Source of the DNA: Rhodothermales bacterium
Lineage (GTDB): Bacteria > Bacteroidota > Rhodothermia > Rhodothermales > BA12
DNA: 32,241 bases
Direction: 5' to 3'
Assembly (NCBI GenBank): GCA_014879465.1
Contig: JACSSA010000104.1
Coordinates: 1 to 32,241 of the forward strand
Shown here: positions 4,574 to 31,866 of the stretch, one piece after another
Layout: each line of letters starts with the position of its first letter
Position numbering within the stretch: position 1 is the first letter of the stretch
The notes under the pieces: model-generated
Seen by the model: only the letters and a program-made list of their open reading frames with translations
What the model was told of the DNA's origin: nothing
Database searches by the model: none
Translations under genes and position numbers: made by a program

Positions 4574-5968
4574 TCACGCCCGGACGCCGGCGGTGGTGCG
4601 GGGGAGCCACTTGCCGCGGCCTTCCTGCCCGACGACCGTGTAGTCGTCCACGATGACTTCGCCGCGCGAGAGGGTTGTGCGGGAGAAGCCGGCGAGGTCG
4701 CGGCCCTCGAACGGGTTCCAGTCGGCGTTGGTCTCCATCGTGGCGGGGTCTACCCGGATGCGGTGCGTCGGGTGGACGATGGCGAGGTCGGCGTCCGCCC
4801 CCACTTGGATCGCGCCCTTGCGCGGGGCGAGGCCCATGATCTGCGCGGGGTTGGCCGAGAGCTTCTGCGCCAGTTCGACGAGCGTGAGCCGCCCTTCGAG
4901 CACGCCGTAGGTATAGACGACGGGCAGCAGCGTTTCCAGCCCCGGCATCCCCATCGGGATCTTCGTCCAGTCGCCGTTCCACATCGCCTTTTGCTCGCGC
5001 GTGAACGTGCAGGTGTCGGTGGAGACGACCGACACTTCGCCCGACTTCAGCCCTTCCCAGAGCCGCTCGACGTCGGCGGGCTTCTTGAGCTGCGGGCAGC
5101 AGGCGTAGAGGTGGCCGTCCGGCTCGGCAAACACCGAGTCGTCGAGCACGAGGTACTGGGCGCACGTCTCGGCGAACACGTTGACGCCGCGCGCCTGCGC
5201 CGCCCGCACGAGGTCGGTACCCTCGGCGGTGGACATGTGGACGATGTAGAGCGCCCCGCCGGTCACTTCGCACCACGCGATGGCCCGCTGGATGGCCTCG
5301 GCCTCGACGAAGTTGGGCCGGGTGATGGCGTGGAGCCGCGCGCCGTACTCCTGCATCAGCTCGGGCGTGTGGTGGCGGTCGATGAGTTCGTCGAGCACGC
5401 GGGCGGATTCGGCGTGGACGAGCAGCATCGCGCCGAGCTTCTTCATCCGCTCCAGCGTGTCGAACATCGCGCGGTCGTCGGACTGCCAGCCCTCCGACTC
5501 GTAGATCATGAACTCCTTGAACGTCGGGAAGCCTTGCTCCACCATCCCGGCGATCTGGTCCTTGTGCTCGGCCCAGCGCGTCACGCAGATGTGGAACGTG
5601 TAGTCGATCATCGCCTTGCCTTCCGCCTTCTTTTTCCAGTTGTCCGCGGCGTCTTGGAGGCTCTCGCCTGCGTACGGGATGGCGAAGTCGATGACGGTCG
5701 TGACGCCGCCGCGCGCCGCCGCCCGCGTGCCGGTGCGGTAGTCGTCGGCGGATACGGCCCCCATGAACGGCAGTTCGAGGTGGACGTGCACGTCGAGCAC
5801 GCCGGGCAGCACGATGTGCCCGGTGGCGTCGATGCGGCGGGCGGCGTCGGCGGAGGAGAGGTCGTCGGCGACGGCGGCGATGGTCTCGCCGACGATGCCA
5901 ATGTCGGCGCGAACGACGCCGCCCGGCGTCACCACGTCGCCGCCGTGGATGATCGTGTCGAAGGTCAT
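4574..5968 (-). CDS. Dihydropyrimidinase / D-hydantoinase
   Basis: A 464-residue cyclic amidohydrolase. It would open dihydrouracil or dihydrothymine to N-carbamoyl-beta-alanine or its methyl homologue, the second step of reductive pyrimidine degradation. Metal and active-site residues are visible: HVH (H61, H63), the lysine expected to be carbamylated (K151 in FPTFKEFM), H185 (LLVHAES), H244 (YIVHMS) and D318 (STDTC). The C-terminal RGEVIVDD is typical of the family. The ORF track extends to 6022, but MTFDTIIHGG at 5968 is the family N-terminus, so I start there. It is the last gene of the catabolic run and is separated from the aminotransferase gene by a GIY-YIG gene and repeats. Allantoinase or hydantoinase activity on other rings remains possible; the neighbours favour pyrimidines. 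Confidence 0.9.
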   Translation of the reverse strand: MTFDTIIHGGDVVTPGGVVRADIGIVGETIAAVADDLSSADAARRIDATGHIVLPGVLDVHVHLELPFMGAVSADDYRTGTRAAARGGVTTVIDFAIPYAGESLQDAADNWKKKAEGKAMIDYTFHICVTRWAEHKDQIAGMVEQGFPTFKEFMIYESEGWQSDDRAMFDTLERMKKLGAMLLVHAESARVLDELIDRHHTPELMQEYGARLHAITRPNFVEAEAIQRAIAWCEVTGGALYIVHMSTAEGTDLVRAAQARGVNVFAETCAQYLVLDDSVFAEPDGHLYACCPQLKKPADVERLWEGLKSGEVSVVSTDTCTFTREQKAMWNGDWTKIPMGMPGLETLLPVVYTYGVLEGRLTLVELAQKLSANPAQIMGLAPRKGAIQVGADADLAIVHPTHRIRVDPATMETNADWNPFEGRDLAGFSRTTLSRGEVIVDDYTVVGQEGRGKWLPRTTAGVRA

Positions 5969-6000
5969 AACGAAAGTCCGAAGGTCGAAGGGTGATGAAG
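5969..6000. repeat. Degenerate GAAGG-type short repeats at the dihydropyrimidinase start
   Basis: Directly upstream of the minus-strand start codon, the plus strand reads as loosely repeated CGAAAGTC / CGAAGGTC / GAAGGGTG units. They resemble, in worn form, the GTGCGAA heptamers next to the NAD kinase start and a similar tract next to the beta-ureidopropionase start. Confidence 0.35.
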
Positions 6001-6036
6001 GATGTCTCTTTGGCTGGGCCAATCCTCAGCGGGTCT

Positions 6037-6120
6037 GTCGTGGCGAGCGAAGCGAAGCCATCTCGTAGGTATGGCGCAAAAGCGACGAGTTTGCTGCACC
6101 GCTTCGCCCTTCACAATGAA
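6037..6120 (+). repeat. Dispersed repeat, copy 1 (about 84 bp)
   Basis: Begins GTCGTGGCGAGCGAAGCGAA and continues GCCATCTCGT. This 30-base left end differs at only two positions from the copy at 31709-31738. The body and right end (GACGAG..GCTGCACCGCTTCGCC) align with that copy more loosely. It lies 25 bases beyond the GIY-YIG stop codon. Confidence 0.7.
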
Positions 6121-6144
6121 AACGTCGGGCGTTCCCGTTGGGCT

Positions 6145-6432
6145 CTAAGGAAGGAGATCAGAGGAGAGATCGCGCCACATGGGGTTGAGGGCGTGGATGA
6201 GGGCTTCTTTTCGAGCACGAGAGCCGCCCTTGATCTGCTTCTCGCGTGCAATGGCGCTGTGAATGTCGTCGAACGTCTCGAAGTACAGCAGATCGGTGAC
6301 GTTGTAGCGCTTCGTGAACCCCGCCACCGACGCCGAACGATGCGCCTCGACCCTGCGGGCAAGGTTTCGTGTGACTCCGGTGTACAGCACCGTTCGCCGA
6401 GCATTGGAGAGCAAATACACGAAGTACGGCAT
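6145..6432 (-). CDS. GIY-YIG nuclease family protein (COG2827-type)
   Basis: A 95-residue single-domain protein. Its N-terminus, MPYFVYLLSN followed by LYTGVTRNLARRVEAHR, supplies the GIY-YIG core (Tyr-hairpin, T-G-V-T, catalytic Arg on the first helix). A later REKQIKG and a C-terminal NPMWRDL complete the small stand-alone family often annotated as putative endonuclease. The ORF track runs to 6579, but residues before MPYF are encoded by repeat DNA, so I use the ATG at 6432. Copies of a dispersed repeat lie on both sides, 25 and 31 bases away, in the middle of the pyrimidine cluster. Substrate and role are unknown; mobilisation or repair are both possible. Confidence 0.85.
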   Translation of the reverse strand: MPYFVYLLSNARRTVLYTGVTRNLARRVEAHRSASVAGFTKRYNVTDLLYFETFDDIHSAIAREKQIKGGSRARKEALIHALNPMWRDLSSDLLP

Positions 6433-6463
6433 CGGGCTGAGCGCCTTCAATCTACGCTTCCGT

Positions 6464-6583
6464 GTCATTGCGAGGAGGCCCACAGGGCCGACGCGGCAAT
6501 CTGGATCGATGGGCACGGCGTGGGTCGAAGGAGGTTCAGGTCGTCGGGCCAGATTGCTTCGTCGCTCCGCTCCTCGCAACGAC
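6464..6583. repeat. Dispersed repeat, copy 2 (inverted-arm form)
   Basis: The left arm GTCATTGCGAGGAGGCCCAC...GCGGCAATCTGG (6464-6504) is inverted relative to the right arm CCAGATTGCTTCGTCGCTCC...CGCAACGAC (6549-6583). The ends form a stem with the terminal motif GTC(A)TTGCGAGGAG. It starts 31 bases upstream of the GIY-YIG start codon. Confidence 0.7.
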
Positions 6584-6621
6584 GGGGTGAGGATGGTTGG
6601 GATGCAAAGGGGTTGGTTCGT

Positions 6622-6656
6622 CCAGATGGCTTCGTCGCCGCGCTCCTTGCAACGAC
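6622..6656 (+). repeat. Solo right arm of the same repeat family
   Basis: CCAGATGGCTTCGTCGCCGC... ending CTTGCAACGAC matches the right arm of the neighbouring repeat (6549-6583) with a few substitutions. It sits just beyond the aminotransferase stop codon and no matching left arm is seen beside it. Confidence 0.6.
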
Positions 6657-6669
6657 ACGGAAGCTGTCG

Positions 6670-8019
6670 TCAGGCGGCGGAGCCGAAGGCGTGGTCGAAG
6701 GCGTCGAGGGCGTAGTCCACGTCGGCCTTGGTGAGGCACATCGGAGGCTTGATGCGCAGCACGTTGCCGTCGAGGCCGCCCTTGCCCACCAGCACCGACT
6801 GCTCGCGCATCGCCTCCATCACCGCCGCCGTCTCCTCCTTCGCAGGCTCCTTGGTGGTGCGGTCGCGCACGAGTTCGATGCCCAGCATCAGGCCCTTGCC
6901 GCGCACGTCGCCGACCAGCGCGTGCCGCTCCTTGAGGCGCTCCAGCCCGGCCTTGAAGTGCCCGCCGACGATCCGGCAGTTCTCCTGCAAGCCGTCTTCG
7001 TCGATCGCCTCCAGCACGGCGAGGCCTGCGGCCATGCTCACCGGGTTGCCGCCGTAGGTGTTGAAGTGGATGCGCTGCGCGAGCGTCTCGGCGATCTCGC
7101 GGCGGGTGGTGACCGCCGCCAGCGGCGCGCCGTTGCCGATGCCCTTGGCCATCGTCACGATGTCGGGCATCACGCCGAAGCCCTCGAAGCCCCAGTAGTG
7201 GTCGCCAGTGCGCCCAAAGCCCGTCTGCACCTCGTCGGCGATGCAGAGGCCGCCGTGCTCGCGCGCCACCGCGTAGGCCCGCTGGAGGTAGTCGCCGCGC
7301 CCGTGCGTGACGCCGCCCACGCCCTGCATCGGCTCGGCGATGAACGCGGCGATCTTGCCGGGCGTGCTGAAGCGGATGAGCGAGCGGATGTCGTCGGCGC
7401 TCTTGGCCGCGATCTCCTCGTCGGTGCCGCCGAACGGGCTGCGGTACGGGTCGGGGTTGATGGCGTGGTGGATGCCGCCGCCGACCTGCGTCGGGTACTT
7501 CCAGGTGTGGTGGCTGGTAAGGCCCATCGCCGTCGGCGAGCCGCCGTGGTAGGCGTTGCGCAGCGCGATCACGTCGCTGTGACCCGTGTAGAGCCGCGCC
7601 ATCGCAATGGCGAGGTCGTTGGCCTCGGAGCCGCTGTTGACGAAGTACGTCACGTCCAGCCCGTCGGGCATCCGCGCGGCCAGCGCCTCGGCGAAGCGCG
7701 GCATGTTCGGGTGGAGGTAGATCGTCGTGGTGTGCGCGAGCGTGGCGAGCTGCTGCTGCATCGCCGCCGTGATCTTGGGGTGGGCGTGGCCGCAGGAGAC
7801 GGTCACGATCCCGCCGAAGAGGTCGAGGTAGCGATGCCCGCCGTCGTCGTAGAGGTACTGCATGTGCCCTTCCACGATCATGATCGGCTCCTTGTAGATC
7901 GTGAAGAGCGCCGGGTTGGCGTACTGCCGCCGCAGCGCGAGCACCTCGTCGCGCGAGGGGCCGTCGTAGGGGCGCGGCACATGGTCGGTGGGCGGAAGAG
8001 CAGCGGCGGTGGCAAGCAT
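6670..8019 (-). CDS. Class III aminotransferase, AGXT2-like (beta-alanine / 3-aminoisobutyrate type)
   Basis: A 449-residue PLP enzyme of the omega-aminotransferase class. The PLP lysine is K292 (TMAKGIGNGAP) and the ring-stacking/acid motif is ADEVQTGFGR (D262). The cofactor phosphate loop NSGSEAND (about 128-135) is present. The sequence style (YLDLFGGIVTVSCGHAHP, YLHPNMPRF) is that of alanine-glyoxylate aminotransferase 2 / 3-amino-2-methylpropionate-pyruvate transaminase. In this cluster it would convert beta-alanine or 3-aminoisobutyrate to malonate or methylmalonate semialdehyde. The ORF track extends upstream to 8289, overlapping the permease gene; the ATG at 8019 gives a sensible N-terminus and a 58-base gap. 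Exact amino donor and acceptor cannot be read from sequence. Confidence 0.9.
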   Translation of the reverse strand: MLATAAALPPTDHVPRPYDGPSRDEVLALRRQYANPALFTIYKEPIMIVEGHMQYLYDDGGHRYLDLFGGIVTVSCGHAHPKITAAMQQQLATLAHTTTIYLHPNMPRFAEALAARMPDGLDVTYFVNSGSEANDLAIAMARLYTGHSDVIALRNAYHGGSPTAMGLTSHHTWKYPTQVGGGIHHAINPDPYRSPFGGTDEEIAAKSADDIRSLIRFSTPGKIAAFIAEPMQGVGGVTHGRGDYLQRAYAVAREHGGLCIADEVQTGFGRTGDHYWGFEGFGVMPDIVTMAKGIGNGAPLAAVTTRREIAETLAQRIHFNTYGGNPVSMAAGLAVLEAIDEDGLQENCRIVGGHFKAGLERLKERHALVGDVRGKGLMLGIELVRDRTTKEPAKEETAAVMEAMREQSVLVGKGGLDGNVLRIKPPMCLTKADVDYALDAFDHAFGSAA

Positions 8020-8077
8020 CGGGCGAAGGGAATGAATCGAGGAAAAAACGGGCGGAGGGTTGCGAGGGCGCGGCGCG

Positions 8078-9547
8078 TCACGCCGACGCCGTTGCCCGCC
8101 GGGCGAGCGCGGTGTGGACGGCCCCGGCGATGAACAGGCTCGCGAACCATCCGTAGGCGTAGAGCGCGTCGAAGAACGCGGGCACGTCGATGGCACCGTT
8201 CGTGGCCTGCGCGAGGAAGCCCGGCACGCACGGCAGGATGCCCGCGGCGAGCGCGACCAGCGCCCGGCGGTTGACGCCCGTCCCGCCAAAACTGTACGCG
8301 CCGTTCGGGTCGTAGAGCGCGTCCACGTCGAGGCGGCGGCGGCGCACGAGGTAGTAGTCGGCCAGCATCACGCCCGCAATCGCGCCCAGCAGCGTCGAGT
8401 AGCCGATCATCCACGTGAAGATGTAGGCCGACAGGTCGTTGTAGAGCCGCCACGGCATGATCGCCAGCCCGATGCCGGCGGTGATGAGGCCGCCGGTGCG
8501 GAACGAGATGCGGCGCGGCGCGAGGTTCGAGAAGTCGTTGGCGGGCGAGACGACGTTGGCGGCGATGTTGGTCGAGAGCGTGGCGAGCGCGAGCGCCACG
8601 AGCGAAAGCGCCACGAGCACGGGGCTTTCGAAGCGTCCGAGCAGCACGACGGGATCCCAGATGGCCTCGCCGAAGACGACGACGGTCGCGCTCGTCACCG
8701 CGATGCCGATGAAGGCGTACAGCGCCATCGTGCCCGGCAGCCCGATGGCCTGCCCGAGCACCTGCTCGCGCTGGCTCTTGGCGTAGCGCGTGAAGTCGGG
8801 AATGTTGAGCGAGAGCGTCGCCCAGAAGCCGACCATCGCGGTGAGGTTGGGCCAGAAGAGCGCCCAGAAGTCGAACGGCGGCGCGTCTGCGCCGCGCATC
8901 TGGGAGATCACGGCGTCGTCGAGGATGCGGTCGAAGCCGCCGCCGGCCTTCACCGCCCACGCGAGCAGCCCCAGCCCGACGGCGATCAGGAACGGGGCCG
9001 ACAGCGTCTCCAGCCACTTGATCGACTCGATTCCGGCGAGGATCAGGGCCACGTTGATCGCCCAAAACGCGAGAAAACACGCGAACTGCCCCGCCGAGAG
9101 GCCGATGAACGGGAGCGCGTCGGCGGCGGTGGCGGGCGCGAAGCCGAAGAGCGCGGCGAGCGTCATGTAGATGGCCGACCCGCCGATCCACGTCTGGATG
9201 CCGAACCACCCGCAGGCGACGAATCCGCGCATCAGCGCGGGCACGTTGGCGGCGCGGGTGCCGAAGCTGGCACGCAGCAGCACGGGGAACGGAATGCCGT
9301 ATTTCGTCCCCGCGTGCGCGTTGAGCATCATCGGGACGAGCACGATCACGTTGGCGAGGACGATCGTGAAGAGCGCCGTCTTCCACGGAAACCCCTGCGC
9401 GATCATCCCCGAGGCGAGCGTGTAGGTCGGAATGCACACGGCCATCCCCACCCACAGGGCGGCGATGTGCCAGCGGTTCCACGTCCGCCGCTCCATCGGC
9501 ACGGGCGCGAGGTCTTCGTTGTAGAGCGGCGAGTCGGAGAGGTTCAT
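8078..9547 (-). CDS. NCS1-family nucleobase permease
   Basis: A 489-residue inner-membrane transporter with roughly twelve hydrophobic segments. The NCS1 hallmarks are at the N-terminal end: NRWHIAALWVGM in the first helix, then HAGTKYGIPFPVLLRASFGTRAANVPALMRG. The family imports uracil, cytosine, allantoin or hydantoins with H+ or Na+. Position between the beta-ureidopropionase and aminotransferase genes suggests uptake of uracil, thymine or a dihydro derivative. The ORF track reaches 9715, but MNLSDSPLYNEDLAPV at 9547 is a typical NCS1 start (short hydrophilic tail before helix 1) and the extra part is repeat-derived. Substrate is inferred from context only. Confidence 0.9.
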   Translation of the reverse strand: MNLSDSPLYNEDLAPVPMERRTWNRWHIAALWVGMAVCIPTYTLASGMIAQGFPWKTALFTIVLANVIVLVPMMLNAHAGTKYGIPFPVLLRASFGTRAANVPALMRGFVACGWFGIQTWIGGSAIYMTLAALFGFAPATAADALPFIGLSAGQFACFLAFWAINVALILAGIESIKWLETLSAPFLIAVGLGLLAWAVKAGGGFDRILDDAVISQMRGADAPPFDFWALFWPNLTAMVGFWATLSLNIPDFTRYAKSQREQVLGQAIGLPGTMALYAFIGIAVTSATVVVFGEAIWDPVVLLGRFESPVLVALSLVALALATLSTNIAANVVSPANDFSNLAPRRISFRTGGLITAGIGLAIMPWRLYNDLSAYIFTWMIGYSTLLGAIAGVMLADYYLVRRRRLDVDALYDPNGAYSFGGTGVNRRALVALAAGILPCVPGFLAQATNGAIDVPAFFDALYAYGWFASLFIAGAVHTALARRATASA

Positions 9548-9610
9548 GCGCCTAACGTTTGAGGGAGCAGCTCGCGATGCGTTTGTGCGGAAGCGGGAAA
9601 TGCCCCTGAC

Positions 9611-9690
9611 TTCGTCGCCCCCGCGCAGGCGGGGACCCCGTCGCGCTGAAAAGACTCTGGATCCGCGATCATGTCGGGGATGACGATGGG
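9611..9690. repeat. Dispersed-repeat-like intergenic sequence
   Basis: Contains a CCCCGC-GCAG-GCGGGG hairpin (9619-9634), a CTCTGGATCC segment and GGGGATGACG. This arrangement is reminiscent of widespread intergenic repeats of the form GTCATCCCCG...GGATCCAGAG. It fills most of the gap between the beta-ureidopropionase and permease genes. I have only one copy in the window, so the family assignment is from memory. Confidence 0.4.
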
Positions 9691-9729
9691 GACCGCGCAG
9701 CGAAGCGTCGATCAAGGGTCAACCCACCG

Positions 9730-10599
9730 TCACGGATGCACGGTGGCGGTGTACGTCTCCGGGCGACGGTCGCGGTAGAACTGCCACGTGTTGCGGACTT
9801 CGCGGATGAGGTCGAGGTCGAGGTCGGCCACCACCACGGCGTCGCCGCTGCGCGGCGCCTCGGCGATGATCTGCCCGCGCGGGTCGGCAAAGTAGCTCTG
9901 CCCGTAGAACTCGCCGATGTTCCACGGCCCCTCGGTGCCGGGGCGGTTGATCGCGCCGACGTAGTAGATGTTGTTGGCCGCCGCCGCGGGCTGCTCCAGC
10001 TTCCACAGGTACTCGCTCAGGCCCGCAACCGTCGCCGACGGGTTGAAGACGATTTCGGCCCCGCCGAGGCCCAGCTCGCGCCAGCCCTCGGGGAAGTGGC
10101 GGTCGTAGCAGATGTAGACGCCGACCTTCCCAACGGCGGTGTCGAACACCGGGTAGCCGAGGTTGCCGGGGCGGAAGTAGAACTTCTCCCAGAACCCCGG
10201 ATGGCAGTGCGGGATGTGGATCTTGCGGAACTTGCCCAGATACGACCCGTCGGCGTCGATGACGGCGGCGGTGTTGTAGTACACGCCCGTGATGTCTTCC
10301 TCGTACATCGGCGCGACGATCACCATCTTGTGCTTCTTGGCGATGTCCTGCATCACCTTGGTCGTCGGGCCGTCGGGGATGCGCTCGGTCAGGCCGTACC
10401 ACTTCTCCTCCTGCTCGGCGCAGAAGTACGGGCCGTAGAACAGCTCTTGCATGCAGACGACCTCCACGCCCTTGCCCGCCGCTTCTTCGAGCAGGGCGAC
10501 GTGCTTGTCCAGCATCCGCTGGCGGATCTGCGCGACCGGCGCGGCGGGGTCTTCGTTGAGGGTGGCCTGGATGAGGCCGGCGCGAACGATGCGGGGCAT
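9730..10599 (-). CDS. Beta-ureidopropionase / N-carbamoyl amidase (nitrilase superfamily)
   Basis: A 289-residue carbon-nitrogen hydrolase. It would hydrolyse N-carbamoyl-beta-alanine (or the beta-aminoisobutyrate homologue) to the amino acid, CO2 and ammonia, step three of reductive pyrimidine degradation. The catalytic triad is clear: E52 (QELFYGPYF), K126 (KFRKIHIPH) and C164 (YICYDRHFPE). The GPYFC and HIPHCHPGFWEKFYF segments are typical of N-carbamoylputrescine/N-carbamoyl-beta-alanine amidases. The ATG at 10599 gives a complete N-terminus (PRIVRAGLIQA). N-carbamoylputrescine amidase is the main alternative by sequence alone; the neighbouring dihydropyrimidinase and PreA genes favour the pyrimidine role. 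Confidence 0.9.
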   Translation of the reverse strand: MPRIVRAGLIQATLNEDPAAPVAQIRQRMLDKHVALLEEAAGKGVEVVCMQELFYGPYFCAEQEEKWYGLTERIPDGPTTKVMQDIAKKHKMVIVAPMYEEDITGVYYNTAAVIDADGSYLGKFRKIHIPHCHPGFWEKFYFRPGNLGYPVFDTAVGKVGVYICYDRHFPEGWRELGLGGAEIVFNPSATVAGLSEYLWKLEQPAAAANNIYYVGAINRPGTEGPWNIGEFYGQSYFADPRGQIIAEAPRSGDAVVVADLDLDLIREVRNTWQFYRDRRPETYTATVHP

Positions 10600-10640
10600 A
10601 AGAAAAGGCGAAGGTCGAGGTGCGAAGGTGGTGAGGCGTA
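10600..10640. repeat. Degenerate GCGAAGGT-type short repeats at the beta-ureidopropionase start
   Basis: The plus strand next to the start codon carries AAAAGGCGAAGGTCGAGGTG followed by CGAAGGTGGTGAGGCG. These are imperfect repeats of a GCGAAGGT-like unit, similar to the tracts at the dihydropyrimidinase and NAD kinase starts. Confidence 0.35.
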
Positions 10641-10660
10641 GCTGGATGGTCTAACGGGTT

Positions 10661-10735
10661 GTTGCGAGGAGCGAAGCGAAGCGGCACCCTCGTCGGCTTG
10701 GCGTCTCAACCGCGAGTGGGCTGCGCTACGACACG
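10661..10735 (-). repeat. Dispersed repeat, copy 3 (inverted orientation)
   Basis: GTTGCGAGGAGCGAAGCGAA followed by GCGGCAC is, read in reverse complement, the right end of the copy at 31766-31792 with one mismatch over 27 bases. The body (TCGTCG..TTGGCGTCTC) and the worn far end (GGGCTGCGCTACGACACG) align along the full element. It lies between the beta-ureidopropionase and PreA-like genes. Confidence 0.7.
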
Positions 10736-10743
10736 ATGGGGAC

Positions 10744-11955
10744 TTACGAGCGGGCGAAGCCGGGCGGAAGCGTGCCCTTGGCCGCGGGCGCGGCGGTCGG
10801 TGCAGACTCGGCGCTGTCGTCGCCGGACGCGCCGTCCCCCGACGTGCCGCTGCCGTCGTTGGAGTAGCCCTCGTAGCCGCCGAAGTAGTCTTCGTCGACG
10901 GGGCGGCGGATCTGCGAGTTGGCGACGATGCGGTCGCGCCGCATCCCGCGGAAGTCTTCGAGGCACGTCCACCCGCGGTGGGCGTTGTGGTCGAGGAACT
11001 CGGCGAGGCCGGCGTTGAGGCCCGCGATCACGTTCGGCCCAATCGCCTTGTCGAGCATCGCCGAGGTGCACACCTGCACGGTGCCGCAGCCGAGGAGGAA
11101 GTAGTTGAGCGCGTGCGTGAACGTGGTGATGCCGCCGATGCCGGAGAAGGCTTTGTCCGGGAACGCCTTCGTCATCTGCGCCATCTTGGCCAGCGAAATC
11201 GGCAGGATGGCGGGCCCGCCGAGGCCGCCGCTCGAGACGAGGCCGTCGACGTTGATCTCGAACTCCAGCGTGTCGGGGTCGATGACGGGCAGCGACGGGA
11301 ACGTGTTGCTCGACACCACTGCCTCGGCCCCGCCGCGGAAGACCGCGCCCGCTTCGACGGCGATGTCGCCGGTGGCAGGGGTGAGCTTCGACCAGACCGG
11401 GATCGTCGCCACTTCCTTCACGGCCTGCGTCACGGTCGAGCACAGCGCGGCATCTTTGCCGATGTTTGACCCCATGTCGGCGCGGTCCATGTGCGGGCAC
11501 GACAGGTTCAGTTCGAGGCCGTCGGCCCCGGCTTCTTGGCACGCGATGGCGAGCGTCTGCCAGTTGCGCAACTCCTCGTCTGACCCCGACCCCGCCATGA
11601 TCGAGGCGATGAGCATCTTGGTCGGGTGCGCCGCTTTGATCCGCATCAGGCGCGGCACCCACCAGTCAATCGGCTTGGTCGAGATCAACTCCCAGTTCCA
11701 CGACGAGTGCAGGGCCGCGTCGGGGATTTTGCGCATCGTGATGGCGTCCGACTCGACGCCTGTGCGGAAGAACTTGGTCTTCGGTCCGGCCACGTTGACG
11801 ACCGGGTGCAGGCCGATGGTTTTCGACACCACCCCGCCCCATCCGGCGTCGAAGGCGCGCATGATGTTGCTCTCCGACTCGGTCGGCGGCGCCGAGGAGA
11901 GCAGAAACGGGTTCTCGAAGCGAAGGCCGGTGAAGACGGTGGAGAGGTCGGGCAT
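10744..11955 (-). CDS. PreA-like dihydropyrimidine dehydrogenase subunit without ferredoxin domain
   Basis: A 403-residue FMN-dependent TIM-barrel protein of the dihydroorotate/dihydropyrimidine dehydrogenase family, expected to reduce uracil or thymine. Family marks include ENPFLLSSAPPT near the start, AGWGGVVSKTIG, ELNLSCPHMDRADMGSNIGKD, VSSNTFPSL, FSGIGGI and GTVQVCTSAML. Bacterial PreA usually ends in a domain with two 4Fe-4S clusters. Here no cysteine occurs after GWTCLEDF, and the last 43 residues are a Gly/Ser/Asp/Ala-rich tail (DGSGTSGDGASGDDSAES). At the position I align with the catalytic Cys of mammalian DPD (GLACGQD) this protein has Ile (GSNIGKD); I recall Val in other bacterial PreA. 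No PreT gene is nearby, so the electron donor is unclear. The substrate is inferred from its neighbours. Confidence 0.82.
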   Translation of the reverse strand: MPDLSTVFTGLRFENPFLLSSAPPTESESNIMRAFDAGWGGVVSKTIGLHPVVNVAGPKTKFFRTGVESDAITMRKIPDAALHSSWNWELISTKPIDWWVPRLMRIKAAHPTKMLIASIMAGSGSDEELRNWQTLAIACQEAGADGLELNLSCPHMDRADMGSNIGKDAALCSTVTQAVKEVATIPVWSKLTPATGDIAVEAGAVFRGGAEAVVSSNTFPSLPVIDPDTLEFEINVDGLVSSGGLGGPAILPISLAKMAQMTKAFPDKAFSGIGGITTFTHALNYFLLGCGTVQVCTSAMLDKAIGPNVIAGLNAGLAEFLDHNAHRGWTCLEDFRGMRRDRIVANSQIRRPVDEDYFGGYEGYSNDGSGTSGDGASGDDSAESAPTAAPAAKGTLPPGFARS

Positions 11956-12067
11956 GGGCGTTGGGGAGTTGGGGATGGTGGACAGTCAGAAGCGCCGGAA
12001 CAAGAACCTCCGACGACTCACCACCCACCACAGCGAGCAAAGCGGGCGGACAGGCGACACCGCCGCG

Positions 12068-13528
12068 TCACGACATCCAGTTGGTGCCGGCGTCCTGATT
12101 CCACTTCGTGGTGATCTTCTTCGCCTGCGTCCAGAACTCGATGGAGCCGCGTCCGGTGATTTCGCCGACGCCGTACTTCGAGTCGTTCCAGCCGCCGAAC
12201 GAGAACGGCTCGCGCGGCACCGGCACGCCCACGTTGACGCCGACCATCCCGGCGCTCGCGCGCTCGGCGACGAGCCGCGCCATTCCGCCGCTTTCGGTGT
12301 AGACCGACGCGGCGTTGCCGTAAGGCGAGGCGTTCTCGATGGCCAGCGCGCCGTCCACATCGGGCGTGCGGACGATGGCGAGCACGGGGCCGAAGACTTC
12401 CTCTTGGGCGATCTTCATCTCCGGCGTGACGTGGTCGAGGATGGTCGGGCCGACCCAGAAGCCGCCGTCTTGGCCCTCCACCGTCGCGCCGCGTCCGTCG
12501 AGCAGCACCGTCGCGCCCGCCGCCTCGGCCTCGGTGATGTACCGCTCGATGCGCGCCTTCGCCTCCGCCGTGATCACGGGGCCGAGCGTCGAACCGGGCA
12601 CGACGTTCTTCGCCACCTCCACCATTCGCTGGATGATCGCGTCGGTGGGGCCGACGGCCACCATCACGCTGGCCGCCATGCACCGCTGCCCGGCGCACCC
12701 CGACATCGACGCCACGATGTTGCTCGCCGCCATCTCGCGGTCGGCGTCGGGCAGGACGATCAGGTGGTTTTTGGCCCCGCCCATGCAGAGCGCCCGCTTG
12801 AGGTTGGCCGTGGCCCGGCGGTACACGATCTGCGCTACCTTGGTCGAGCCGACGAACGACACCGCCGCGATGTCCGGGTGGTCGCACAGGGCTTCCACAA
12901 CCTCGCGCCCGCCGTTGACGATGTTGAACACGCCGTCGGGAAGGCCCGCTTCGCGCAGCAGCTCCGCCAGCCGCACCACCGAGAGCGGCACCAGCTCCGA
13001 CGGCTTCATCACCATCGTGTTGCCCAGCACGATCGCGTTCGGGATCGTCCAGTTGGGCACCATGTTGGGGAAGTTGAACGGCGCAATCGACGCCACCACC
13101 CCGACCGGGTGCCGCTCGATCCGGCACTCGACGCCGCGGCTCACTTCGAGCACTTCGTTCGACGTGATCTGCGGCATCGACACGGCAAACTCGCACAGTT
13201 CGATGGATTTGAGCACCTCGGCCCGCGCCTCGCTCTCGATTTTGCCGTTCTCCTGCGTGACGAGCGCCGTCAGCTCGTCGATGTGCTGTTCGAGAAGCGC
13301 CCGGTAGCGGAAGATGACCTGCACGCGCTCCTTGATGGGCAGCGACGACCACGCGGGCAAGGCCGCCTTCGCCCGCGCCACCGCCGCATCAACGTCCGCT
13401 GTCGACGCCACCGGGACGTGCCCGATCACCGCTCCGCTGGCCGGGCTGTAGACGTCGAGGAAAGGCGCGTCGCTGTCGTAGCCGTCGCCGGAAGCGAGCG
13501 CAGATGGAGATGCCGAGGTTGTGCTCAT
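12068..13528 (-). CDS. mmsA: CoA-acylating (methyl)malonate-semialdehyde dehydrogenase
   Basis: A 486-residue aldehyde dehydrogenase. It would oxidise malonate semialdehyde to acetyl-CoA, or methylmalonate semialdehyde to propionyl-CoA, with loss of CO2 and using NAD+ and CoA. The catalytic Cys is C283 in GCAGQRCMA, a signature specific to this subfamily. GGAKNH (about 250-255) replaces the usual general-base Glu motif, again diagnostic. NAD-binding pieces (PFNFPNMVP, MKPSELVP, FVGSTKVA) are present. It is the first gene of the minus-strand cluster and finishes the pathway started by the PreA-like, dihydropyrimidinase, ureidopropionase and aminotransferase products. A candidate promoter lies upstream. 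An IolA role in inositol use is possible but no inositol genes are seen. Confidence 0.93.
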   Translation of the reverse strand: MSTTSASPSALASGDGYDSDAPFLDVYSPASGAVIGHVPVASTADVDAAVARAKAALPAWSSLPIKERVQVIFRYRALLEQHIDELTALVTQENGKIESEARAEVLKSIELCEFAVSMPQITSNEVLEVSRGVECRIERHPVGVVASIAPFNFPNMVPNWTIPNAIVLGNTMVMKPSELVPLSVVRLAELLREAGLPDGVFNIVNGGREVVEALCDHPDIAAVSFVGSTKVAQIVYRRATANLKRALCMGGAKNHLIVLPDADREMAASNIVASMSGCAGQRCMAASVMVAVGPTDAIIQRMVEVAKNVVPGSTLGPVITAEAKARIERYITEAEAAGATVLLDGRGATVEGQDGGFWVGPTILDHVTPEMKIAQEEVFGPVLAIVRTPDVDGALAIENASPYGNAASVYTESGGMARLVAERASAGMVGVNVGVPVPREPFSFGGWNDSKYGVGEITGRGSIEFWTQAKKITTKWNQDAGTNWMS

Positions 13529-23108: not shown

Positions 23109-23990
23109 CTACGCATCCTTCGCCATCTGCCCCCACATCAGCTTCTCGCGCAAGGTGTTGAAGAAGTGCTGGCCGTCGAGGCGGACGAGCCGTAAGTCGT
23201 GCGACGCTCGCTCGATCACGAACGATTCGGCGGGAGCCTCCACCACATGCGCGGTGCCGTCGATGGCGACCACGAACGGCGTTCCCCGCGTCTTGACCGT
23301 CGCTTCGATGCGCACCGTGTCGGGCAGGACGACGGGGCGGACGGTCAGCGTGTGCGGCGCGACCGGCGAGAGCACGACGACGCCCGCTGTCGGGTAGACG
23401 ATCGGCCCGCCGACGGACAGCGAGTAGGCGGTCGAACCCGTTGGGGTGGCCACGATCAGCCCGTCGCCCCAGTAGGTGTTGAGGTATGCGCCGTCCACGG
23501 TCACGCGCACCGAAATCAGGCCGGCGCGCCCGTAGCGCTCGAACGAGAACTCGTTGACGGCCCACGGCGTGGCGAATGGCAATCCGTCGTGATGGGCGGC
23601 GAGGATGGCGCGGTTTTCGACGTGGTAGTGCCCGGCCTCGACGGCGGCAATGGCCTGTTGAATCTCCTGCGTCTCGATGTCGGCCAAAAATCCGAGTCGT
23701 CCGATGTTGACGCCGAGGATGGGCGTGCACGCCGGGCCAACGGCGTGGGCGGTGCGCAGGAGCGTCCCGTCGCCGCCAAACGACAGCACGAGGTCGGACG
23801 TGCGGGCAAACGCCGCATCTGCCGCGCCGTCGAGCACCTCGGCCTCCACCAACCCGCGCTCGGCCAGTCCGGCGGCGAGATCGGGATCGAGGCGAAACGG
23901 CAGGCCTTGGGCGTTGAGCCACCGAACGAGATCGGCAGCCGGCGACCAGAGGGCCGACTTGGTGACGTTTCCGGTGAGGCCGTAGGTCAA
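23109..23990 (-). CDS. nadK: NAD kinase
   Basis: A 293-residue kinase that makes NADP+ from NAD+ and ATP. The catalytic GGDGT motif is at residues 72-76 (D74), then NIGRLGFLAD, NEFSFERYGRAGLI and the substrate-binding GDGLIVATPTGSTAYSLSVGGP. The start appears to be a TTG: TYGLTGNVTKSALW is the N-terminus I recall for the Bacteroidota form, and no in-frame ATG or GTG lies upstream in the open frame. One base upstream of this TTG begins an array of eight GTGCGAA heptamers (plus-strand reading). The leader is therefore made of repeats and has no Shine-Dalgarno sequence. Function is certain; how the array affects expression is open. Confidence 0.95.
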   Translation of the reverse strand: MTYGLTGNVTKSALWSPAADLVRWLNAQGLPFRLDPDLAAGLAERGLVEAEVLDGAADAAFARTSDLVLSFGGDGTLLRTAHAVGPACTPILGVNIGRLGFLADIETQEIQQAIAAVEAGHYHVENRAILAAHHDGLPFATPWAVNEFSFERYGRAGLISVRVTVDGAYLNTYWGDGLIVATPTGSTAYSLSVGGPIVYPTAGVVVLSPVAPHTLTVRPVVLPDTVRIEATVKTRGTPFVVAIDGTAHVVEAPAESFVIERASHDLRLVRLDGQHFFNTLREKLMWGQMAKDA

Positions 23991-23991
23991 G

Positions 23992-24047
23992 GTGCGAAGT
24001 GCGAAGTGCGAAGTGCGAAGTGCGAAGTGCGAAGTGCGAAGTGCGAA
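23992..24047. repeat. Heptanucleotide tandem array, eight perfect GTGCGAA units
   Basis: Eight identical 7-bp units run without interruption, ending in GG. The array starts one base upstream of the minus-strand NAD kinase start codon and lies in the divergent region shared with the FAD oxidoreductase gene. It has no stop codon in some frames, which explains the repeated RSAKCEV and HFALRTS peptides in the ORF track; these are not real proteins. Confidence 0.97.
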
Positions 24048-24178
24048 GGTGGAACCGGAGGATGCCCGTTGGTTCCGCGCCGGAGCGTCGGTTCTGGCGG
24101 AAACGATTCCGGTGTGGAGTCGCCACCGTACGGTTCCGAATGTACCTTCAACCGACCGGTCTTCGACGCCTTCTCCGT

Positions 24179-31423: not shown

Positions 31424-31866
31424 GCAAGACCGGCGACCGGCTGGGGAATGGACGTTGGTTCCACCAACCCCCACCCGTTTGCGCCCCCACACCGCCTTTC
31501 GCTTCGCCCTCGGCGTGCTCCATGCGGGCATGTGGGCGACGCTCGTCGCCAACCGGATTGTGCTGAAACGCACGCCTTCTGGGCACGAAGCGGGAGATTC
31601 AAGCTACCGGGACGACTTGTCATCTGGAGCGTTGCGCTCGTGACCTATCCCAAGGTGGGGTGGAGGAGGTCTGTCTACGCCGTCTTGGGACTCATCCGAA
31701 AAGGGTGTGTCATGGCGAGCGAAGCGAAGCCCTCTCGTCGCAGAGACGCCCAAACGACGAAGGTGCCGCGTCGCTTCGCTCCTCGCAACGACCCCCGTAG
31801 GACGTTTCGGATAGGTCCTTGCTCCGGGACCGTAGAATCGCGCCCTCTACCCGAGACTCGAAACCT
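31424..31866. other. 443-base gene-free spacer carrying repeats
   Basis: No convincing gene is present. A stretch near 31610-31660 (TGTCATCTGGAGCG..GTGACCTATC) looks like a worn repeat of the GTCATCCTGAGCG kind that I recall from many genomes. The segment 31688-31818 holds the repeat element described separately. A 62-codon frame at 31455-31643 is considered and rejected. Confidence 0.6.
31688..31818 (+). mobile_element. MITE-like repeat element, copy 4, with outer inverted repeats
   Basis: The inner repeat (31709-31792) starts GTCATGGCGAGCGAAGCGAA and ends CGCTTCGCTCCTCGCAACGA. It is the best-preserved copy of the family seen at 6037-6120 and 10661-10735. It is enclosed by GGACTCATCCGAAA (31688-31701) and TTTCGGATAGGTCC (31805-31818), which are inverted copies with two mismatches over 14 bases. 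No ORF is inside. The outer repeats were not found around the other copies. Confidence 0.6.

Follow-up and report, generated by a model that had tools for sequence, protein, structure and literature searches.

The nuclease gene and the repeats around it

The stretch of DNA analysed here, 32,241 bp in length and referred to below as the window, carries a short gene for a GIY-YIG nuclease with a copy of one palindromic repeat on either side and further copies elsewhere:

6037–6123 (end also placed at 6119), no strand assigned: REPIN-like unit, GTCGTGGCGAGCGAAGCGAAGCCATCT followed by an inverted, decayed partner, 25 bp past the nuclease stop
6145–6432, minus strand: COG2827-like GIY-YIG nuclease gene, an open frame of 95 amino acids plus stop with a PF01541 match, starting MPYFVYLLSNARRTVLYTGVTRNLARR
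6464–6583, no strand assigned: REPIN-like unit of two inverted REPs, GTCATTGCGAGGAGG...GCAATCTGG and, on the minus strand, CGTCGTTGCGAGGAGCGGAGCGACGAAGCAATCTGG, 31 bp before the nuclease start
6620–6656, minus strand: single (solo) REP of the same family as the nuclease-flanking units, core match with 3 mismatches
10658–10732, plus strand: dispersed REPIN copy, core match with 1 mismatch, 83% complementary to 31720–31794
31709–31792, minus strand: dispersed REPIN copy, the best preserved of the window, exact core match

A preliminary description of the locus had placed one repeat 25 bases past the stop of the 95-residue nuclease gene and another 31 bases before its start, with further copies at 6622, 10661 and 31709. 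These positions were confirmed, the further copies spanning 6620–6656, 10658–10732 and 31709–31792. The inverted ends that it ascribed to the repeat were found in most copies, which are head-to-head REP pairs, but not at 6620–6656, where a single REP lies.

The 95-residue protein belongs to the GIY-YIG family, as it matched the PF01541 profile with E = 4.6e-15 and 56.1 bits (cut-off 22.6). Residues Y6, Y17, G19, H31, E64 and N83, which are invariant in the family across 23 relatives, are all present in it; R26/R27 is nearly invariant across the same relatives, and the catalytic Tyr, Gly, Arg, Glu and Asn positions of GIY-YIG enzymes are conserved. The nearest solved structure is PDB 1zg2 (BH0048), with E 4e-4. 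The gene is the only small GIY-YIG gene of its source genome (2.97 Mb in 219 contigs), in which three other PF01541 matches fall in frames of 359–627 amino acids. A PADLOC run for a defence-system protein gave no match, and this assignment was dropped. The surrounding cluster at 4574–13528, its frames judged by eye, reads as pyrimidine breakdown (dihydropyrimidinase, aminotransferase, NCS1-type transporter, amidohydrolase, dihydropyrimidine dehydrogenase and aldehyde dehydrogenase), and the nuclease unit and REPIN copies occupy its intergenic gaps; the copy at 10658–10732 has the amidohydrolase-like gene on one side and the dihydropyrimidine dehydrogenase-like gene on the other. Elsewhere in the window, a short tandem array of the 7-base unit GTGCGAA (23981–24055) adjoins an NAD-kinase-like frame.

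When the source genome was searched with the repeat core TTGCGAGGAGCGAAGCGACG, allowing up to 3 mismatches, 17 matches were found in 2.97 Mb, as compared with one for the reversed control. Five of them fall in the window, four at separate sites or units (6560, 6633, 10662 and 31769). With 17–50 copies per genome, the chance that independent copies would come as near to a particular gene as 31 and 25 bp is about 3e-8 to 2e-7. Genome alignment also placed the unit at 6037–6123 in the dispersed family, and this unit forms a direct repeat (D3) with 31694–31791 at 73% identity over 98 nt. Most of the aligned genome copies are inverted units of about 83 bp, GTC...GAC, that is, REPIN-like head-to-head REP pairs. 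As a single strand, 6464–6583 folds with -31.9 kcal/mol (z = -3.7 against shuffles), and the complete inverted unit at 31709–31792 gave z = -3.0, while 6034–6122 (z = -1.9), 6619–6656 and 10654–10735 were not outstanding against shuffles. Rfam covariance models gave no match on the window at the gathering threshold, and the repeat was dropped as a candidate for a known RNA family. Some copies of the same genome (L005, L006, L009, L010 and L017) show extra inverted ends, ATCCGAAACG / CGTTTCGGAT, outside the REPIN, suggesting that the mobile unit may exceed the REP pair.

The repeat resembles the CGTC-tagged REP superfamily

The superfamily of CGTC-tagged REPs is marked by a CGTC or TGTC tag, a stem beginning with AT, a short CC(A) tail and head-to-head dimers, and its published families are CGTC-1 to CGTC-4, including dRS3, RPE-4 and RPE-6 (Di Nocera et al. 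2013, PMC3733652). According to the same study, these repeats are not associated with transposase genes, which they adjoin in a few, fortuitous cases at most, and apparently have no dedicated transposase. The REPs of the window read (C/T)GTC-ATTGC...GCAAT-C(T/C), with an unpaired TGTC before ATTGC at 6463 and an unpaired CGTC, on the minus strand, ending at 6583, and the inverted units of about 83 bp dispersed in the genome correspond to head-to-head dimers. The published dimensions (a stem of 8–9 bp beginning with AT and a loop of 4–5 nt) were not found in the window copies, which pair ATTGC with GCAAT across a much longer loop, whereas REPs beside related nuclease genes, for example GTCATTCCCGCGAAAGCGGGAATCC, fit those of CGTC-1. 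Judged from its sequence features, the window repeat is a superfamily-like member of the CGTC-tagged REPs that falls outside the four published families as defined, because of its longer loops.

Small GIY-YIG nuclease genes are accompanied by REPs in many phyla

Relatives of the nuclease occur in 25 of 60 genomes of the window's order and in at least 167 of 297 genomes of its phylum, with up to 10 per genome (at most 17 candidates were scored in each). A scan of named genomes yielded 80 loci in Pseudomonadota, Myxococcota, Nitrospirota, Planctomycetota, Chloroflexota, Elusimicrobiota, Armatimonadota, Deinococcota, Calditrichota and several candidate phyla. In the contig scan the narrower alignment A2 was used because alignment A1 was too diverse, and the 84 nuclease genes from other phyla therefore represent one subfamily.

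REPs were sought with a type-blind detector, which fixes the tag, the complementarity and the tail but leaves the sequence of the 5-bp stem free. A 6-bp stem missed most ATTGC-type REPs, so that half of the phylum's genes seemed negative; the controls were the same with 5 bp. A CGTC-type REP was found within 300 bp of 116 of the 133 nuclease genes in the window's phylum and of 68 of the 84 in other phyla, as compared with 3/133 and 2/84 for the scrambled control tag CAGT. The remaining 17/133 and 16/84 genes (13–19%) have no detectable REP within this distance. REP density is about 7 per kb in the 100 bp nearest the gene and drops to about 0.2 per kb at distances above 800 bp, and in the 20-kb loci of other phyla (REP within 300 bp in 64/80) it is 6.3 per kb up to 150 bp from the gene and 0.12–0.24 per kb at 0.5–10 kb. 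The tag of the nearest REP in other phyla mostly faces away from the nuclease gene (52/62 upstream, 43/57 downstream). More distant homologues (L043, L044 and L046) have no REPs. At one locus (L217, contig C86 of G118), three REP-nuclease-REP units lie in tandem with gene copies about 420 bp apart, and the same contig carries a fourth related unit (L074).

Since REPs are mostly intergenic, small genes and REPs might meet by chance in the same space. The counts make this explanation practically negligible: at the 80 named-genome loci, REPs lie within 150 bp on both flanks of 42 nuclease genes but of only 8 of 675 other ORFs, and REP type pairs with nuclease lineage within genomes (see below). 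The flanking above background that the preliminary description had proposed as a check was observed for this repeat type, and by a wide margin. Alternatively, the REPs could do no more than serve an ordinary nuclease gene as terminator or insulator hairpins, which would agree with their closeness to it, often 20–60 bp from its ends. We regard this as very improbable, as the same repeats are dispersed elsewhere in the genomes, their type changes with the nuclease lineage, and the tag sequence itself is needed, control tags being near background.

A further explanation is that a RAYT or another transposase moves the REPs, the GIY-YIG protein being a structure-specific nuclease that either becomes established close to REPs or processes the cruciforms they form. 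Some Y1 transposase is indeed encoded by 15 of the 23 examined genomes. However, a CGTC REP lies within 300 bp of none of the 24 Y1/RAYT-type genes in these 23 chosen genomes, REP-rich genomes such as G321, G313, G063 and G061 gave no Y1 match, and the published survey likewise places CGTC REPs beside transposase genes in a few fortuitous cases only (Di Nocera et al., PMC3733652). Mobilisation by such an enzyme therefore appears improbable.

REP type follows nuclease lineage

In genomes with several nuclease genes, a different REP type lies beside each. The five genes of one genome (G009) are accompanied by ATCGCGAGG, ATCCTGAAC, ATTTCGAAC, ATCCCCGCG and ATCCCGAGC REPs, and a relative (G031) shows a closely similar gene-to-REP pairing. 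In permutations among paralogues within genomes, the REP arm tracked the nuclease lineage (z 5.2 and 4.6, 0/2000), the agreement of protein similarity with REP similarity being lost on shuffling, and among triples holding the host constant, 881 were for a match between lineage and REP and 117 against. When nine classes of REP arm were mapped on a tree of 152 proteins, 54 label changes were required, as compared with 97.8 when shuffled (0/200), although single branches of this tree are unreliable because it rests on few columns.

The pairing is also expected under a homing explanation, according to which a free-standing homing-type gene cuts REP sites, is copied into them by recombination, and uses as targets REPs that another process spreads, provided that each nuclease is target-specific. 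GIY-YIG is a classical homing endonuclease fold, 4 of 23 family members match the NCBIfam group I intron endonuclease model, if weakly, and many of the nuclease genes are located within REP arrays. The dose relation and unit ends described below bear against it.

REP number rises with the number of nuclease genes

Counted with one REP pattern, genomes with 0, 1, 2–3 and 4 or more nuclease genes have median REP counts of 0, 3.5, 8 and 16.5, respectively. The presence of the nuclease and of at least 5 REPs are associated with a Fisher P of about 4e-11 uncorrected and about 1e-13 after a recheck, the latter figure leaning towards association because only REP-rich negative genomes were rechecked. 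In one family alone, at least 10 REPs occur in 13 of 15 genomes with a strong nuclease match and in 8 of 49 without (odds ratio 33, P 1e-6, with the same one-sided recheck), and nine genomes of that family with weak homologues only have 0–2 REPs. Host phylogeny is controlled fully in the within-genome permutation, roughly in this one-family test, and in these two tests only.

When 21 REP-rich genomes were rechecked, small genes came to light in G204, G076 (with a stop), G309, G090 and G285, whereas about 15 have no small GIY-YIG gene (among them G067, G105, G131, G145, G161, G172, G182, G193, G208, G239, G274, G279 and G310). The preliminary description had held that nucleases without repeats, together with repeats without a nuclease, would speak against a link. 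Both exist, but in part only, as these roughly 15 of 21 genomes and the 13–19% of genes mentioned above. The REP-bearing genomes that lack the gene are read most simply as holding orphan REP populations.

Units end at their REPs, and one site occurs in three states

We compared units located in unrelated contexts and found that similarity ends, outside the gene, within 12 bp of a REP end in 41 of 47 cases (null 33%) and within 6 bp in 29 of 47 (expected 19%). A unit of about 343 bp common to contigs of Pseudomonadota and deltaproteobacteria (Myxococcota) starts with TTCGTCATTCC, ends with GGAATGAC and is bounded by its CGTC REPs. Related units in other genomes thus recur in unrelated contexts with defined ends, as mobile elements do. 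In a separate comparison, a unit of about 311 bp is 81% identical between Desulfobulbus (L141) and a genome of the window's phylum (L235 in G115), which suggests transfer between phyla. Two copies of a nuclease unit in G184 (L247 and L258, about 1375–1980) are 93% identical over 609 bp, and their ends resemble integron attC sites, as if carried in gene cassettes.

The preliminary description had also suggested mapping repeat copies and empty sites in relatives, and one intergenic site in genus g54 occurs in all three states: it is filled in G215, G190 and G260, holds a single REP in G208, G145 and, decayed, G222, and is empty in G193, G298, G243 and G339. The flanks are nearly identical in G208, with the solo REP, and G260, with the filled site. 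The series shows presence and absence of the gene together with a REP, and loss between direct repeats can also produce it. When related loci were screened for REPs present in one and absent from another, few cases emerged, with no clear target-site duplication.

The homing explanation accounts for the pairing but fits the REP dose relation and the unit ends less well. Units in common carry both REPs and end at the outer REP ends, between phyla too, and REP number climbs with nuclease copy number while nuclease-free genomes mostly have few or no REPs, which is unexpected if REPs spread independently. We consider homing unlikely.

Discussion

We propose, with a probability of roughly 0.7, that 6037–6583 represents a minimal REP-nuclease-REP unit and belongs to a widespread class whose small single-domain GIY-YIG nucleases are the cognate enzymes of CGTC-tagged REPs, as RAYTs are of GTAG REPs. 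The physical association, the lineage-specific pairing, the ends at REPs, the presence and absence at one site and the genome-level co-occurrence were all observed and support this reading. Such a unit is very probably the minimal mobile form, with solo REPs as its non-autonomous derivatives, since similarity stops at the REP ends and one site occurs filled, solo and empty; that the nuclease cleaves and moves it we infer from these sequence comparisons. The data agree with the suggestion of the preliminary description that the arrangement parallels RAYT/REP systems with a GIY-YIG nuclease in the place of RAYT, given the flanking above background, the tracking of lineage and type and the three site states, and also favour its view of a carrier unit for a non-autonomous palindromic repeat, in which nuclease-driven movement would be the presumed step.

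Enzymes of the GIY-YIG type introduce nicks into DNA, and branched or hairpin structures are substrates of several of them (Slx1, ANKLE1, I-TevI). In the mechanism that we envisage, the nuclease would recognise the hairpin or cruciform of its own REP type (GTC tag, AT-first stem, CC/CT tail) and nick at the edge of tag and stem, and host repair or replication would then copy the REP, the REPIN or the whole REP-gene-REP segment into a new intergenic site. The whole unit would be served in cis, and solo REPs and REPINs, as non-autonomous derivatives, in trans.

The recurrence of the pairing across many phyla makes this family of small GIY-YIG nucleases the best candidate for the enzyme, missing so far, that moves one of the two large families of palindromic repeats in bacteria. 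We think the odds somewhat better than even that it represents a kind of bacterial transposition not recognised before: a single-domain nuclease of about 95 residues, working without a transposase or recombinase, would recognise and mobilise CGTC-tagged hairpin repeats in around a dozen or more phyla, each lineage its own repeat, and would fill the place of the absent enzyme in one REP superfamily of the two. To our knowledge, the GIY-YIG fold is not known to act alone in bacterial transposition; if the proposal is true, it would add this fold as a sole actor and account for the several short COG2827-type GIY-YIG genes, of unassigned function, in so many bacteria. It also makes the question of a dedicated enzyme for CGTC-tagged REPs (Neisseria dRS3, rickettsial RPE-4/6 and many others) directly testable, in a system of a 95-residue protein and a short DNA hairpin.

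A literature search, its coverage thin for subscription papers and preprints, found no earlier report of a GIY-YIG/REP pairing. A REP with a cognate enzyme is a known kind of system, and the GIY-YIG fold and the CGTC superfamily appear new in that role. With RAYT/REP (REPtron) and REPIN systems the present units share the small single-gene unit flanked by its own REP type, the co-segregation of enzyme lineage and REP type, the many dispersed non-autonomous REPs and REPINs, and orphan populations. RAYT, however, is an HUH Y1 tyrosine transposase with GTAG REPs, whereas the gene flanked here encodes a GIY-YIG nuclease and the tag is (C/T)GTC (CGTC or TGTC). The CGTC-tagged REP superfamily shares with the window REPs the tag, the AT-first stem, the CC/CT tail and the head-to-head dimers, but was published without a dedicated enzyme, while the window REPs pair with a nuclease gene and have longer loops. 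The UPF0213/COG2827 proteins (PDB 1zg2, BH0048) have the same single-domain fold of about 90–100 amino acids, and the more distant homologues L043, L044 and L046, unlike the nuclease here, have no REPs. In GIY-YIG homing endonucleases and Penelope-like retroelements, a GIY-YIG nuclease drives DNA mobility, as proposed here, but the present unit has no intron, extra DNA-binding domain or reverse transcriptase.
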